From: Cyanobacterium sp. Dongsha4
Lineage (GTDB): Bacteria > Cyanobacteriota > Cyanobacteriia > Cyanobacteriales > Cyanobacteriaceae
Assembly: GCF_036345015.1 (NCBI RefSeq)
Contig: NZ_CP084098.1
Coordinates: forward strand, 2,803,326-2,867,325
Direction of reading: 5' to 3'
Length of the DNA: 64,000 nt
Made by a program: the position numbers and the translations under genes. Numbering within the stretch: the stretch's first letter is position 1; the number at the start of each line of letters is the position of its first letter. Below the pieces are notes generated by a model. The model was not told where the DNA came from. It made no database searches and saw only the letters and a program-made list of their open reading frames with translations. Shown piece by piece: positions 43,489 through 48,744 of this stretch.

Positions 43489-43500
43489 ATATTAGTAGTA

Positions 43501-45522
43501 TTAATCCTTGATGAAGAGAGATTCTAAATAACTGTAAATTCCTCCACTATAATACAAATCATCAATTTTTACATAGCCTTTATTACCGTCAATTTTTATT
43601 TCAGAAGTAGGGATAAAACCTGCAAAAATTAGTTTATAATTTGGTTGAGCTTCGGAGATTTTTTGCTCACTTAAAACACATACTAAAAGGCTATTTTTTT
43701 CTATTTCAGCTTTACTAATTGACCATGAAATTTCCGTTAAATTTCCGCTACGGGTTTTAACCTGAATACCGATATTGGGATAATCTGTTAAGGTAAAGTC
43801 CACACCGCCATCACCATAATTATATAATTCGTAATCAACTTCGGTGACGAGATTTCCTAAGCGATGTTTTAATAGTGCTTCTCCTAATTTTCCTGTTAAA
43901 TTATTAACGAATAGTTCAACGGATTTTGCATTTTGTTTAAATTTTTTATATTTATCTACCATCTCCCAAGAAAATGCCCTTAATTTTGCTGTTTCTTCGG
44001 TGGAAATAGTGGTTATTTCGCTATGGCTTCCTTCTAATGGGGATTCTAATAAATAGCCTTGTTTATATCTAGTTATAAAGTCTTTTTGTTGAGTTAATAA
44101 GTGGTTAAATTCTGAGATTATAGGAGATGATTGATAGTTTTTATTTAATAGGGTATTATCAAAGATTGTACCTGTCAGATTAGCACTATCAAAATTAGCT
44201 TTTAAGTTATAGCATATATAAACATTATCGAAATTAGCTTTTACACATTGACTATATCTAAAATTAGCATTTGTTATATTACATTTCTGCAAAATTGCAT
44301 TATCTAAAATAGCCAAATCAAAAATACTTGAATATAAAGAACTTTTAGAAAGATTACTGTCAGATAAATTTGCTTGACTTAAATTTGCTTCAAAAAGAGT
44401 TGCTTTTGTTAAATTAACTCTTTTCATATTAGTTCTGTTTAAATTTGCATTTGATAAATCAGCTTCTTTTAAACAAGCTCCCTCTAAATCAAGATTACTT
44501 AAATTTAAACCTCTTAAATCACTATTTTGTAAATTAGCAAACTTTAAATTAATATATTTAAGTTGCTCAGTATTAATGTCTCTTAAATCGACAAAATCCA
44601 AATCTAATGGATACTCTAAAAATGTTTTGCTATTTTCATTAATCAAATTATTTATTAACAACCAAGCTATATATAATTTATTATTTTCAAAAACACTTTC
44701 ATCGCCAATTATACCTCTTAAATTAGTATGATTAAATATTGCTGTTGCCAACTTAGTTCCACGAAAATCGACATTATCAAAATTTGTTTTTAACCAAATA
44801 TAGCCACTGCTAGTTGTAAACCATTCATTCCAATGTGGATCAATTCCAGCTTTTGTTGAACTAAAATTTGTATTAAATAATGCACTATCAGTAAAATTTA
44901 GATTTTTCAAATCGGCAGATATAAACTCAGCATTAGTCAAATCGGACTTAGTGAAATTACAATTTATTATTGAAGGATAATGATAATGAAAACTAGGTGA
45001 ATATCCTTCCAAATTTTGCATTTTTTTGAAATTGAATTTACTATTCTTTAAATTGCAGTTACTAAAATTAACATTAATTAATTTTGAAGCAGAAAAATCT
45101 GTCCCTTGTAAATTACAATTACTAAAGTTAATCTCTTTGAGATAACAAAAACTAAGGTCAAGATTTTGTAACTTATTCATGTTAGCTTGACCATTTACTA
45201 TTCCCCAAACTTTATACCATTTAGAGTCAAGTCCCTGACAATTATCAATTCTAGTCTTATATAAGTATGTCCACTCTAATGATGAGTTATTTAATAATGC
45301 TTTTTCTAAATTGGTATTGGTAAAATTTGCTCCTACGAGATAAGAATACTCTAAATTTGCTCCTGTTAAATCAGCATCGCTGAAATCTGAAAAGGTTAAA
45401 ATAGCACCTCTTAAATCAATATCTTTCAAAGATGCCCCTCTTAAATCTAGTTTTCCAAAAACTTTGCCCCGAAAATCTCTTTCGCCTTTTGCGTAACGCT
45501 CTAATAATTCTTGTGCTTCCAT
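43501..45522 (-). CDS. Pentapeptide-repeat protein fused to a PD-(D/E)XK nuclease-like domain
   Basis: 673 residues. About residues 17-470 are pentapeptide repeats of the A(D/N)LXX type (for example LRGASLKDIDLRGA and NANLNRTNMKRVNL), with interruptions, forming a right-handed square helix. A linker is followed by a C-terminal domain (about 520-670) with the order E548 (LGEALLKHRL), D575 (GGVDFTL) and Q587-V-K589 (IQVKTRSG). That is the E...D...(E/Q)xK signature of the PD-(D/E)XK nuclease fold, of the DUF4365 kind. A repeat scaffold joined to a nuclease is unusual; pentapeptide proteins often mimic DNA. DNA processing or defence is an inference. A truncated HigA-like gene lies 72 bp upstream. 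Confidence 0.75.
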   Translation of the reverse strand: MEAQELLERYAKGERDFRGKVFGKLDLRGASLKDIDLRGAILTFSDFSDADLTGANLEYSYLVGANFTNTNLEKALLNNSSLEWTYLYKTRIDNCQGLDSKWYKVWGIVNGQANMNKLQNLDLSFCYLKEINFSNCNLQGTDFSASKLINVNFSNCNLKNSKFNFKKMQNLEGYSPSFHYHYPSIINCNFTKSDLTNAEFISADLKNLNFTDSALFNTNFSSTKAGIDPHWNEWFTTSSGYIWLKTNFDNVDFRGTKLATAIFNHTNLRGIIGDESVFENNKLYIAWLLINNLINENSKTFLEYPLDLDFVDLRDINTEQLKYINLKFANLQNSDLRGLNLSNLDLEGACLKEADLSNANLNRTNMKRVNLTKATLFEANLSQANLSDSNLSKSSLYSSIFDLAILDNAILQKCNITNANFRYSQCVKANFDNVYICYNLKANFDSANLTGTIFDNTLLNKNYQSSPIISEFNHLLTQQKDFITRYKQGYLLESPLEGSHSEITTISTEETAKLRAFSWEMVDKYKKFKQNAKSVELFVNNLTGKLGEALLKHRLGNLVTEVDYELYNYGDGGVDFTLTDYPNIGIQVKTRSGNLTEISWSISKAEIEKNSLLVCVLSEQKISEAQPNYKLIFAGFIPTSEIKIDGNKGYVKIDDLYYSGGIYSYLESLFIKD

Positions 45523-45594
45523 AATGTTTGAAATAGGATTAATTTTAATTAGTTATTAGCTATTATTTATTGTTTATTGTTTATTATTGATTAA

Positions 45595-45828
45595 TTAAGA
45601 TTCATCACTTAAATCCGCTAATCCTTTAATGATAAAAGTTTTATTTTCAGGAAATTCTGCCACTAATTTTAAACCTCCTCCTAAACCCTGAATATAGTTA
45701 GCTAAATAGGCTTTGCGTAATTCTCTTAATGTGATTTCTTCTGCGATTAATTGATTAGCTTCTGCTTGTATTTCTGCTTGTTCTTCAGGGGTAAAGTTTG
45801 CCATCATTTCTGATAATGTTTTAGTCAT
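45595..45828 (-). CDS. HigA/XRE-like antitoxin remnant lacking the helix-turn-helix
   Basis: 77 residues. The start (TLSEMMANFTPEEQAEIQAE, with LIAEEITLRELRKAY) and end (LGGGLKLVAEFPENKTFIIKGLADL) agree with the family of XRE-type antitoxins that carry a DNA-binding HTH between these blocks. In this protein the blocks join directly at residue 41, so about 30 residues holding the HTH are missing in frame. It cannot bind DNA in the normal way. No RelE/HigB toxin is beside it. It may be a decayed antitoxin or a domain that kept toxin binding only. Confidence 0.65.
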   Translation of the reverse strand: MTKTLSEMMANFTPEEQAEIQAEANQLIAEEITLRELRKAYLANYIQGLGGGLKLVAEFPENKTFIIKGLADLSDES

Positions 45829-45882
45829 TTTTATCTACTTCCTTCGTTTGAGATATTTTGCAGAGTAGAAGCAACGAAACTC

Positions 45883-46260
45883 TCAAATTCTCATGTATCT
45901 TGCCGCCGCCGTGCAGGTTTCTTGGATTTCTACTGCATATAGGTTGGGCATTCCCATCGATTCTAATTTATTATATAGCCAAAGCGCGATCGCCTCGCTA
46001 GTGGGATTTTCTAAGCCCAATGATTCATTGAGGTAGTAATGATCTAAATATTGATCTAAAATAGGTTGTATATAAGCCTTAATATCACCATAATCCATAA
46101 CCATGCCTTGTTTAGTGCCTTCGCTGACTAGATGATTACTACGGACATAAATTCTTGCTTTCCAACTATGCCCGTGTAACCTTGCACATTTTCCGTCATG
46201 GTGAGGTAATTTGTGGGCGGCTTCAAAGGTTATTTCTTTGTAAATAATCCATTCATCCAT
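45883..46260 (-). CDS. queD: 6-carboxytetrahydropterin synthase QueD
   Basis: 125 residues. The zinc histidines are H16, H29 and H31 (AAHKLPHH, RLHGHSW), the catalytic cysteine is C25 in GKCARLHGH and the final E near 117 in AVEIQETCTA fits the substrate clamp. It converts 7,8-dihydroneopterin triphosphate to 6-carboxytetrahydropterin for queuosine synthesis in the cytoplasm. Length favours QueD over eukaryote-like pyruvoyl-tetrahydropterin synthase, although some cyanobacteria use similar proteins for pterin glycosides. Minus strand, 65 bp downstream of mtnD, possibly the same transcript. Confidence 0.88.
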   Translation of the reverse strand: MDEWIIYKEITFEAAHKLPHHDGKCARLHGHSWKARIYVRSNHLVSEGTKQGMVMDYGDIKAYIQPILDQYLDHYYLNESLGLENPTSEAIALWLYNKLESMGMPNLYAVEIQETCTAAARYMRI

Positions 46261-47780: not shown

Positions 47781-47921
47781 TTTTAAGGTAAGGGTTGAGT
47801 TATTTCAACCTTTATTCTATAAAATAATTATTAATTGAAAAATCTTTAAATAGTTTATATCTTATAAATTTATTAAGCGAATCCTCTTTATTTTTTATGA
47901 CTCATCTCAGATTTGTAAATT

Positions 47922-48314
47922 ATGTTAATTTTTTGTAAAAAACAGAAAAAATATAGCAATATTGTTCTTTTTAGAAATTTGCTAATCTTATTAATTCTTT
48001 CCTTATATGGTTGCCAATATAATAAAATATTTACTACAGAAAAAAATAACCAGAAAATAGAACAAAATTCTCAAGATTTATTAACGGATTCTTATACAGA
48101 TAAAATAAATCAATCTACTTTCGATAATATAAAAGAAGGGATGACCTTACAAGATGTTCAAAATTATCTAGGTGTCAAAGGTTATAGAGGTGTAGCAAAA
48201 AGCGGAAATATAGAAATTGAAAGTTATTCTTGGTATTCAAGAGATGGATCAAAACTGATTAATGTTGCTTTTCAAAATGGAAAAGTAATATCTAAAACAG
48301 GAGCTGGATTTTAA
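47922..48314 (+). CDS. Putative lipoprotein with BamE/SmpA-like (DUF3862-type) domain
   Basis: 130 residues. A hydrophobic helix ends in a lipobox (LSLYGC, cysteine near 31), so it is probably a lipoprotein. After a polar linker the domain starts FDNIKEGMTLQDVQNYLG and ends with YSWYSRDGSKLINVAFQNGKV, the pattern of small BamE-like folds. In other bacteria such domains bind envelope proteins. No operon partner; the following genes are on the other strand. Confidence 0.7.
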   Translation: MLIFCKKQKKYSNIVLFRNLLILLILSLYGCQYNKIFTTEKNNQKIEQNSQDLLTDSYTDKINQSTFDNIKEGMTLQDVQNYLGVKGYRGVAKSGNIEIESYSWYSRDGSKLINVAFQNGKVISKTGAGF

Positions 48315-48426
48315 TAGTTTTTTCTAAGTTAGTTAACAAATTCTATGCCGCTTTAGTATTATTATTCATGATTCTTTTTTTGATACATTTTGCTTACACT
48401 TACCTATAAACTTACACGGATAAGGA

Positions 48427-48744
48427 CTAACTTTCATATTGAATCACCGCTTCTTTGATAACTTTATCTCGAAAATAAGGACTTAATTCTTCTTTTGTTC
48501 TCAGGTCAATTTTTCGCCCATTAAATAATGTTGATAATACTCTTTCCATCTCTGATAATTTAAAGAATGTGGGAATATAATCGGCTTTAAATTCTACTAA
48601 AAAATCAATGTCACTATTTTCATTAAAATCATCTCTTAAAACTGAACCAAATAGAAATAATTTACTAATATGATAAAGTTGACAAAATTTATCTAATTTT
48701 TTTCTTGGTACGGTTATAGGTAATGACAATAATTGATTATTCAT
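48427..48744 (-). CDS. MNT-type nucleotidyltransferase, orphan
   Basis: 105 residues. LFLFGSVLRDDFNENSDIDF (about 31-50) carries the GS and DxD motif; a later acidic residue is in KIDLRT. As with the copy at 26809, such genes normally pair with a HEPN toxin, but no HEPN gene is found within 100 bp downstream on this strand, and the next gene upstream is a broken Uma2 gene. The two MNT proteins in the window have the same fold but differ too much to be recent duplicates. Confidence 0.85.
   Translation of the reverse strand: MNNQLLSLPITVPRKKLDKFCQLYHISKLFLFGSVLRDDFNENSDIDFLVEFKADYIPTFFKLSEMERVLSTLFNGRKIDLRTKEELSPYFRDKVIKEAVIQYES

Follow-up and report, generated by a model that had tools for sequence, protein, structure and literature searches.

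A pentapeptide-repeat protein with a predicted PD-(D/E)XK nuclease-like domain in an accessory segment of Cyanobacterium sp. Dongsha4

The gene, its protein and the surrounding segment

The window, i.e. the whole stretch of 64,000 nucleotides of Cyanobacterium sp. Dongsha4 that was analysed, carries at 43501-45522 on the minus strand an open reading frame (ORF) with an ATG start which encodes a protein of 673 amino acids. The whole gene is taken up by a pentapeptide scaffold and a PD-(D/E)XK-like domain. These coordinates had been given correctly in a sequence-only reading of the DNA, which left the strand unstated. The pentapeptide-repeat region (approximately residues 1-463, 44134..45522, minus strand) with its N-terminal cap MEAQELLERYAKGERDF was delimited by the Pfam models PF00805, PF13599 and PF13576 and by repeat statistics. 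The repeats take up about 460 residues, and PF00805 matched with an E-value of 1.3e-53. Residues 1-460 contain the motif A[DN][LF] 13 times, compared with a mean of 1.2 and a maximum of 7 in 1000 shuffles, and the longest run of hydrophobic residues (L, F, M, I, W or V) at every fifth position is 25, compared with a maximum of 10 in 1000 shuffles. Both the model match and the five-residue register thus assign the scaffold to PF00805, and the earlier description of about 450 residues of repeats followed by a C-terminal domain agrees with the match and with the shuffle controls. The C-terminal PD-(D/E)XK-like domain of an unnamed family (residues 473-673, 43504..44106, minus strand) was defined by the alignments A2 and A3, a structural model and a fold search. 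The proposal, made from the letters of the sequence, that one chain unites pentapeptides and a nuclease-like domain is supported.

The gene lies in an accessory segment of approximately 2395 bp (43490..45884) which is absent from the congener G014. The genes flanking it in both genomes are, we assume, recQ and queD. In G014 they are only 3 bp apart, window 43490-45884 is missing, the recQ protein is 98% identical and only two matches to the domain were found, both of them TPR relatives. The GC content of the segment is 28.3% versus 34.8% for the window. The suspicion that the spot is accessory DNA was thus borne out, and the segment was either gained in the lineage of the window or lost in the congener. 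Within the segment, an ORF for 77 amino acids (45595..45828, minus strand) is a remnant without its HTH part, as had been suspected of the neighbouring gene: its first 44 residues match a 107-aa protein (L204:1501-1824), the middle part of which is missing from it. We take both proteins to be antitoxin-like, and the gene L204:1501-1824 presumably adjoins a toxin-like gene; no toxin-like ORF was noted beside the remnant at 45595-45828. Elsewhere in the window, a comparison of 47816-48431 with G014 (L089) revealed that the small gene following a nucleotidyltransferase ORF is missing and that another small gene is present instead. The missing gene is, as we assume, HEPN-like. The nucleotidyltransferase ORF at 48427-48744 looks orphan because the small gene that follows it is absent from the window.

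The orthologues are found in various states of preservation. The one in G009 (L012) is intact, those in G008 and G011 are remnants, and in G010 the domain is split from the repeat part by transposase-like ORFs (L072:9171-10297), presumably of the IS630 type. In G009 and G010, the pentapeptide orthologues adjoin genes that are, by our assumption, ordinary chromosomal ones. The dN/dS ratio of the domain was 0.146 between G009 and G010, the latter copy being itself split from its repeats, and, over 94 codons, 0.26 between the window and the remnant in G008; for the repeat part it was 0.33 (G009 versus G010). The G008 domain remnant (L070:7297-7971) abuts a two-gene toxin-antitoxin-like pair, which we take to be of the YefM/YoeB type.

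Predicted fold, putative active site and relation to named families

The AlphaFold2 model of the domain, built with 31 aligned sequences, reached a pLDDT of 90.1 and a pTM of 0.88, whereas the full-length model was poor (pLDDT 61.6, pTM 0.40) and was discarded. The common core of PD-(D/E)XK enzymes, a helix followed by strands with a helix between them, is present in the domain model. The four site residues named in the sequence-only reading were all found at the positions given there. E548 (43879..43881, minus strand), within the motif GKLGE, lies in the long helix 534-558; D575 (43798..43800, minus strand), within GDGGVDF, immediately precedes strand 576-578; Q587 (43762..43764, minus strand) and, after V588, K589 (43756..43758, minus strand) of the QVK motif are situated in strand 581-592. 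The model therefore supports a predicted PD-(D/E)XK nuclease fold, in which the four residues occupy the helix and strands where they would be expected. In the archaeal Hjc resolvases, we take the site order to be E in a helix, then D, then ExK, and the window domain has the same order.

The nuclease fold of the C-terminal domain, as claimed earlier, gained further support from comparisons of the model with known structures. The highest VIA-align Z-scores were those of I-Ssp6803I (8.8), NhoI (8.4), Eco15I (8.1), SPARDA (7.9), Hjc (7.8) and DpnI (7.5), and RecU was also among the matches listed. The best 50 of the 236 chains with Z of at least 2 were considered, and all of these 50 are, to our reckoning, PD-(D/E)XK nucleases. 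Foldseek gave archaeal Hjc resolvases as its best matches (1.5e-3) and no match to the domain model at E ≤ 0.001; a chaperonin and a hydroxylase also appeared in its list (E 0.19 and 0.43). The likeness to the Hjc family is one of fold only, the identity of the domain to the Hjc chains matched in the two fold searches being 8-18%. A Z-score of 8.8 is modest, and it is the uniform list of nucleases together with the motif that carries the argument for the predicted fold. The fold of residues 473-506 (model residues 1-34) is barely tested because fewer than one fifth of the VIA-align rows cover them.

The conservation of the putative active site, on which the earlier claim had been made to depend, was confirmed by the alignments. 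In alignment A2 (10 rows), G544, K545, G547, E548, D575, V588 and K589 are invariant and position 587 is Q or E. Ten of the 142 distinct domain rows were fragments and were excluded, and 113 active-type rows, including that of the window, were distinguished; since most of these come from one family, they do not represent 113 independent cases. E548 and K589 are present in 113/113 of them, D575 in 111/113 and E or Q587 in 104/113 (E 57, Q 47, A 9), so that both the acidic residues and the (D/E/Q)xK lysine of PD-(D/E)XK enzymes are found in this set. D575 is replaced by H in L114 and by N in the pentapeptide fusion L084. Nine TPR members (L131, L133, L134, L137, L152, L158, L163, L164 and L167) have A at position 587 and retain E, D and K.

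No named family accounts for the domain. With residues 490-673 as the query, neither Pfam nor NCBIfam gave a family at E up to 10, and the whole protein matched none of the PADLOC families of known anti-phage systems (E up to 10). Searches with 31 family members gave only scattered matches in Pfam (at most 3 members each, best E 0.023) and NCBIfam (at most 5 members each, best E 0.00092) and none in PHROGs at E up to 0.01. The sequence search of PDB chains produced weak matches only (E 0.77 and 0.14), and among the literature matches listed no title or beginning of an abstract named the family. The term "unnamed family" is meant relative to the domain libraries searched; the family may coincide with the REase clade of Kaur et al. 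(see below).

A DUF4365 profile had been proposed for the domain. Membership in DUF4365 (PF14280) by Pfam was rejected, as the domain matched no Pfam family and the model was absent from the matches of the 31 members; it also had no match in the organism's own genome and matched in 21 of the 117 genomes scanned. What is left of the proposal is a remote profile relation. The alignment of A3 with 13 DUF4365 sequences by hhalign extended over the D...QVK strands (P 0.0014, probability 17.9%), and none of 150 column shuffles scored as well; when the alignment was widened to 117 rows, the outcome was the same (0 of 100). It is therefore plausible, at the level of sequence profiles, that the domain is a distant cousin of DUF4365. 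Mrr_cat (PF04471) was likewise rejected, the domain being unmatched in Pfam and this family absent from the matches of the 31 members. Its hhalign comparison (14 sequences) was worse than that with DUF4365, 20 of 150 shuffles being as good; with the wider alignment 0 of 100 were as good, over 17 columns only.

Distribution and scaffolds of the relatives

A contig scan with the window domain alone as a query found no relative, whereas 142 were obtained with alignment A2 and 80 of them retained. Across the phylum, 51 of 386 genomes matched at E ≤ 0.001 (41 in family f6, 6 in f1, 3 in f7 and 1 in f16). In f6, a domain relative is present in 143/145 genomes and 56/56 genera (E ≤ 1e-10); 136 of the 145 genomes reach 1e-80 and seven are weaker, three of which (1e-15 to 1e-17) may hold only a site-less WD40 relative. 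We infer that f6 corresponds to Nostocaceae, the heterocyst formers, because the named loci are nearly all from Nostocales. Relatives were found in three plasmid records; phage records searched with the domain of L054 gave no match, and a pattern-limited scan of viral contigs revealed no relative.

In the organism's own family (f1), 13 of 15 genomes have a relative, mostly the site-less TPR form only. Among 17 TPR relatives from f1, E is retained in 5, D in 2, E or Q in none and K in 15, and the full four-residue site in 0/17. Eight positions (Q479, D481, F482, R485, E502, G635, F636 and G661) are nevertheless kept in 17/17 of these rows despite the loss of the site, which argues for a second conserved surface. 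Three full-domain relatives were found in the organism's own genome; only the window gene has an intact site, and the TPR proteins L002 and L030 are without it. Two WD40 relatives of 600 amino acids (L074:1719-3539 and L075:1906-3705) read D-T-Q-H at the four positions and have lost the active site; weaker matches, in open frames about as long, are met with repeatedly across f6.

The domain is carried on various scaffolds. According to Pfam, these are TPR (L054), TPR with GUN4 (L038, L046, L113 and L116), WD40 (L092, L170 and L074), TPR with WD40 (L076) and pentapeptides (the window protein, L012 and L084). The domain is C-terminal in the pentapeptide forms and N-terminal in the named TPR, TPR with GUN4, WD40 and TPR with WD40 forms. 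Between L092 (WD40) and L096 (TPR), which come from genomes sharing the genus code g168, the DNA is 91% identical over 630 bp, and the similarity ends about 12 bp past the end of the domain; for the TPR form L091, the identity is 92% over 763 bp, starting upstream of the gene. In L092, a piece of 52 bp from the domain end is repeated. L096 originates from the chromosome of Anabaenopsis elenkinii and is identical to G447 over 3186 bp, while L092, the WD40 side of the exchange, comes from a MAG and is identical to G420 over 3401 bp. This DNA comparison demonstrates, at the sequence level, the exchange of scaffolds around a constant domain. In a quick tree of 81 rows, the scaffold labels, assigned by means of Pfam, motif patterns and the reading of ORFs, required 15 changes compared with a mean of 41.8 for shuffled labels. 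The pentapeptide label required 2 changes and its origin in one clade was not rejected (AU test, p 0.435); the window protein, L011 and L012 were grouped at 98 and L084 was placed elsewhere in the quick tree, which is one without bootstrap.

The neighbourhoods of the relatives were compared with PADLOC. The set comprised 127 neighbours (at most two a side) at 36 loci, mostly of accessory-type copies; some of these loci also hold the common TPR copy, and L171 and the window were outside the set. For the control, 93 neighbours of the common TPR form were taken (at most one on either side). No recurring defence system appeared among the families listed (25 of 91; control 25 of 37), a scope that could conceal a rarer pattern. 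Among the matches listed, the commonest in the 127 neighbours were mad3 (8), AriA (6) and PDC-S03 (4), and HEC-01A, HEC-01B, PD-T4-6 and others were matched by single members each; those in the control were mad2 (3), PDC-S03 (2) and SduA (2). The Pfam families in the 127 neighbours included AAA_21 (8), Uma2 (7) and DUF4058 (7). The common TPR form has no well conserved neighbour, the best being found at 13/52 loci. One plasmid WD40 copy is located near genes annotated as KAP and NACHT.

Interpretation of the fusion

The fusion is confirmed as real and well constrained, and the identity of its C-terminal domain as a nuclease is likely. The explanation we consider probable, although with considerable reserve, is that the protein is a predicted nuclease with a built-in, exchangeable scaffold for protein interaction that would control or position the nuclease. 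The domain would most likely hydrolyse phosphodiester bonds of nucleic acids with the help of a divalent metal, for which E548, D575 and the Q587-x-K589 strand would be the ligands. The pentapeptide β-helix would most likely dock a partner or ligand and thereby place the nuclease or switch it on; this role is suggested because the relatives carry TPR, WD40, TPR with WD40 or TPR with GUN4 instead. The scaffold exchange therefore speaks for a function of the pentapeptides in docking or sensing and against one as a decoy for gyrase. DNA mimicry or gyrase binding, which had been considered for the repeats, is not favoured, since relatives bear TPR or WD40 and the scores with the NCBIfam models of Qnr (58.6, cut-off 240) and MfpA (48.8, cut-off 360) are far too low. 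The HetL model was also missed (133.2, cut-off 260) and that of Alr5209 was passed (130.2, cut-off 125), so that the protein resembles Qnr, MfpA and HetL in its repeats and differs from them in falling far below their cut-offs and in its fusion to a nuclease-like domain. A role in situations of stress or conflict is perhaps more probable than a housekeeping one; in f6, where relatives are near-universal, a housekeeping function can be argued.

Several known systems share features with the fusion. DUF4365 is the nuclease domain of the short-Argonaute DUF4365-APAZ or SPARDA systems and is reported to degrade DNA nonspecifically together with the short Argonaute once activated (PMC10810196). The window domain is similar to it in the predicted PD-(D/E)XK fold, with VIA-align Z-scores of 7.9, 6.9, 6.6, 6.2 and 5.6 for the SPARDA chains, and may share the D...QxK register aligned by hhalign. 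In contrast, the family of the window protein has no Pfam match, occurs on scaffolds of TPR, WD40 or pentapeptide type and, in the chains examined, lacks APAZ and Argonaute parts. Archaeal Hjc is comparable in fold, but its sequence identity is low and it has no repeat scaffold, and the window domain has an extra N-terminal part. Effectors with the REase fold, including a "previously unreported REase clade", are described from conflict systems of cyanobacteria in which the scaffolds are TPR, pentapeptide or propeller, GUN4 acts as the sensor of tetrapyrroles, and vWA-MoxR-VMAP, EAD or TRADD-N are companion modules (Kaur et al. 2020, 2021; PMC7159879, PMC8195603). The likeness lies in REase-fold domains combined with TPR, pentapeptide, β-propeller and GUN4 parts in multicellular cyanobacteria, and the difference in the nuclease and scaffold forming a single chain in the family of the window protein.

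It is unlikely that the protein is a structure-specific housekeeping nuclease of repair or recombination, resembling a Holliday-junction resolvase, whose repeats would bind partners in repair. On this view the position next to recQ would have a functional meaning, yet recQ and the window gene are convergent, the orthologue lies far from recQ in G009 and G010, and the congener G014, which holds only TPR relatives, lacks the gene although it has recQ. Archaeal Hjc as the best Foldseek match, RecU in the VIA-align list and the occurrence of a relative in 143 of the 145 f6 genomes are consistent with such a nuclease, whereas the common TPR form lacks a well conserved neighbour. Quite unlikely, by analogy with DUF4365 in SPARDA, is an anti-phage or cell-suicide effector whose scaffold would sense infection or damage and free the nuclease. 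The remote DUF4365 relation (0/150 shuffles as good), the SPARDA chains in the fold list, the accessory and decaying copies, the plasmid copy near KAP- and NACHT-annotated genes and the classes of scaffold and effector shared with the conflict systems of Kaur et al. (PMC7159879, PMC8195603) point in this direction. They are opposed by the missing PADLOC match of the protein, the missing recurring defence system among the matches listed for the 127 versus the 93 neighbours, the negative phage and pattern-limited viral scans and the near-universality of the family in f6. The defence role, which had been put forward as conceivable with defence islands as its test, thus received no backing from the recQ and queD-like flanks or from the PADLOC matches listed around the relatives, and a defence role is possible but unsupported. 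A pseudo-enzyme, whose domain would bind nucleic acid or protein and no longer cut, appears very unlikely for the window copy, which has all four residues, conserved also in its nearest relatives L011 and L012, even though the 17 TPR relatives from f1, with their second surface conserved in 17/17 rows, and the two 600-aa WD40 relatives keep the domain after the loss of the full site.

On the preferred reading, that of a nuclease addressed by its scaffold, a predicted fold, a putative active site and a distribution can now be assigned to an unnamed nuclease-like family. More tentatively, and as a possibility we hold to be rather doubtful at this breadth, the family might consist of a constant PD-(D/E)XK core that has moved among pentapeptide, TPR, WD40 and tetrapyrrole-binding GUN4 scaffolds, which would set when and where it cuts; the site-less relatives would act as regulators or decoys, and one form would have become fixed in nearly all genomes of the presumed family of heterocyst formers. 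The question whether a single enzyme is addressed or triggered by repeat scaffolds that can replace one another thereby becomes testable, and the widespread TPR form in f6 and the site-less forms in f1 offer a natural comparison for the purpose of the catalytic site.
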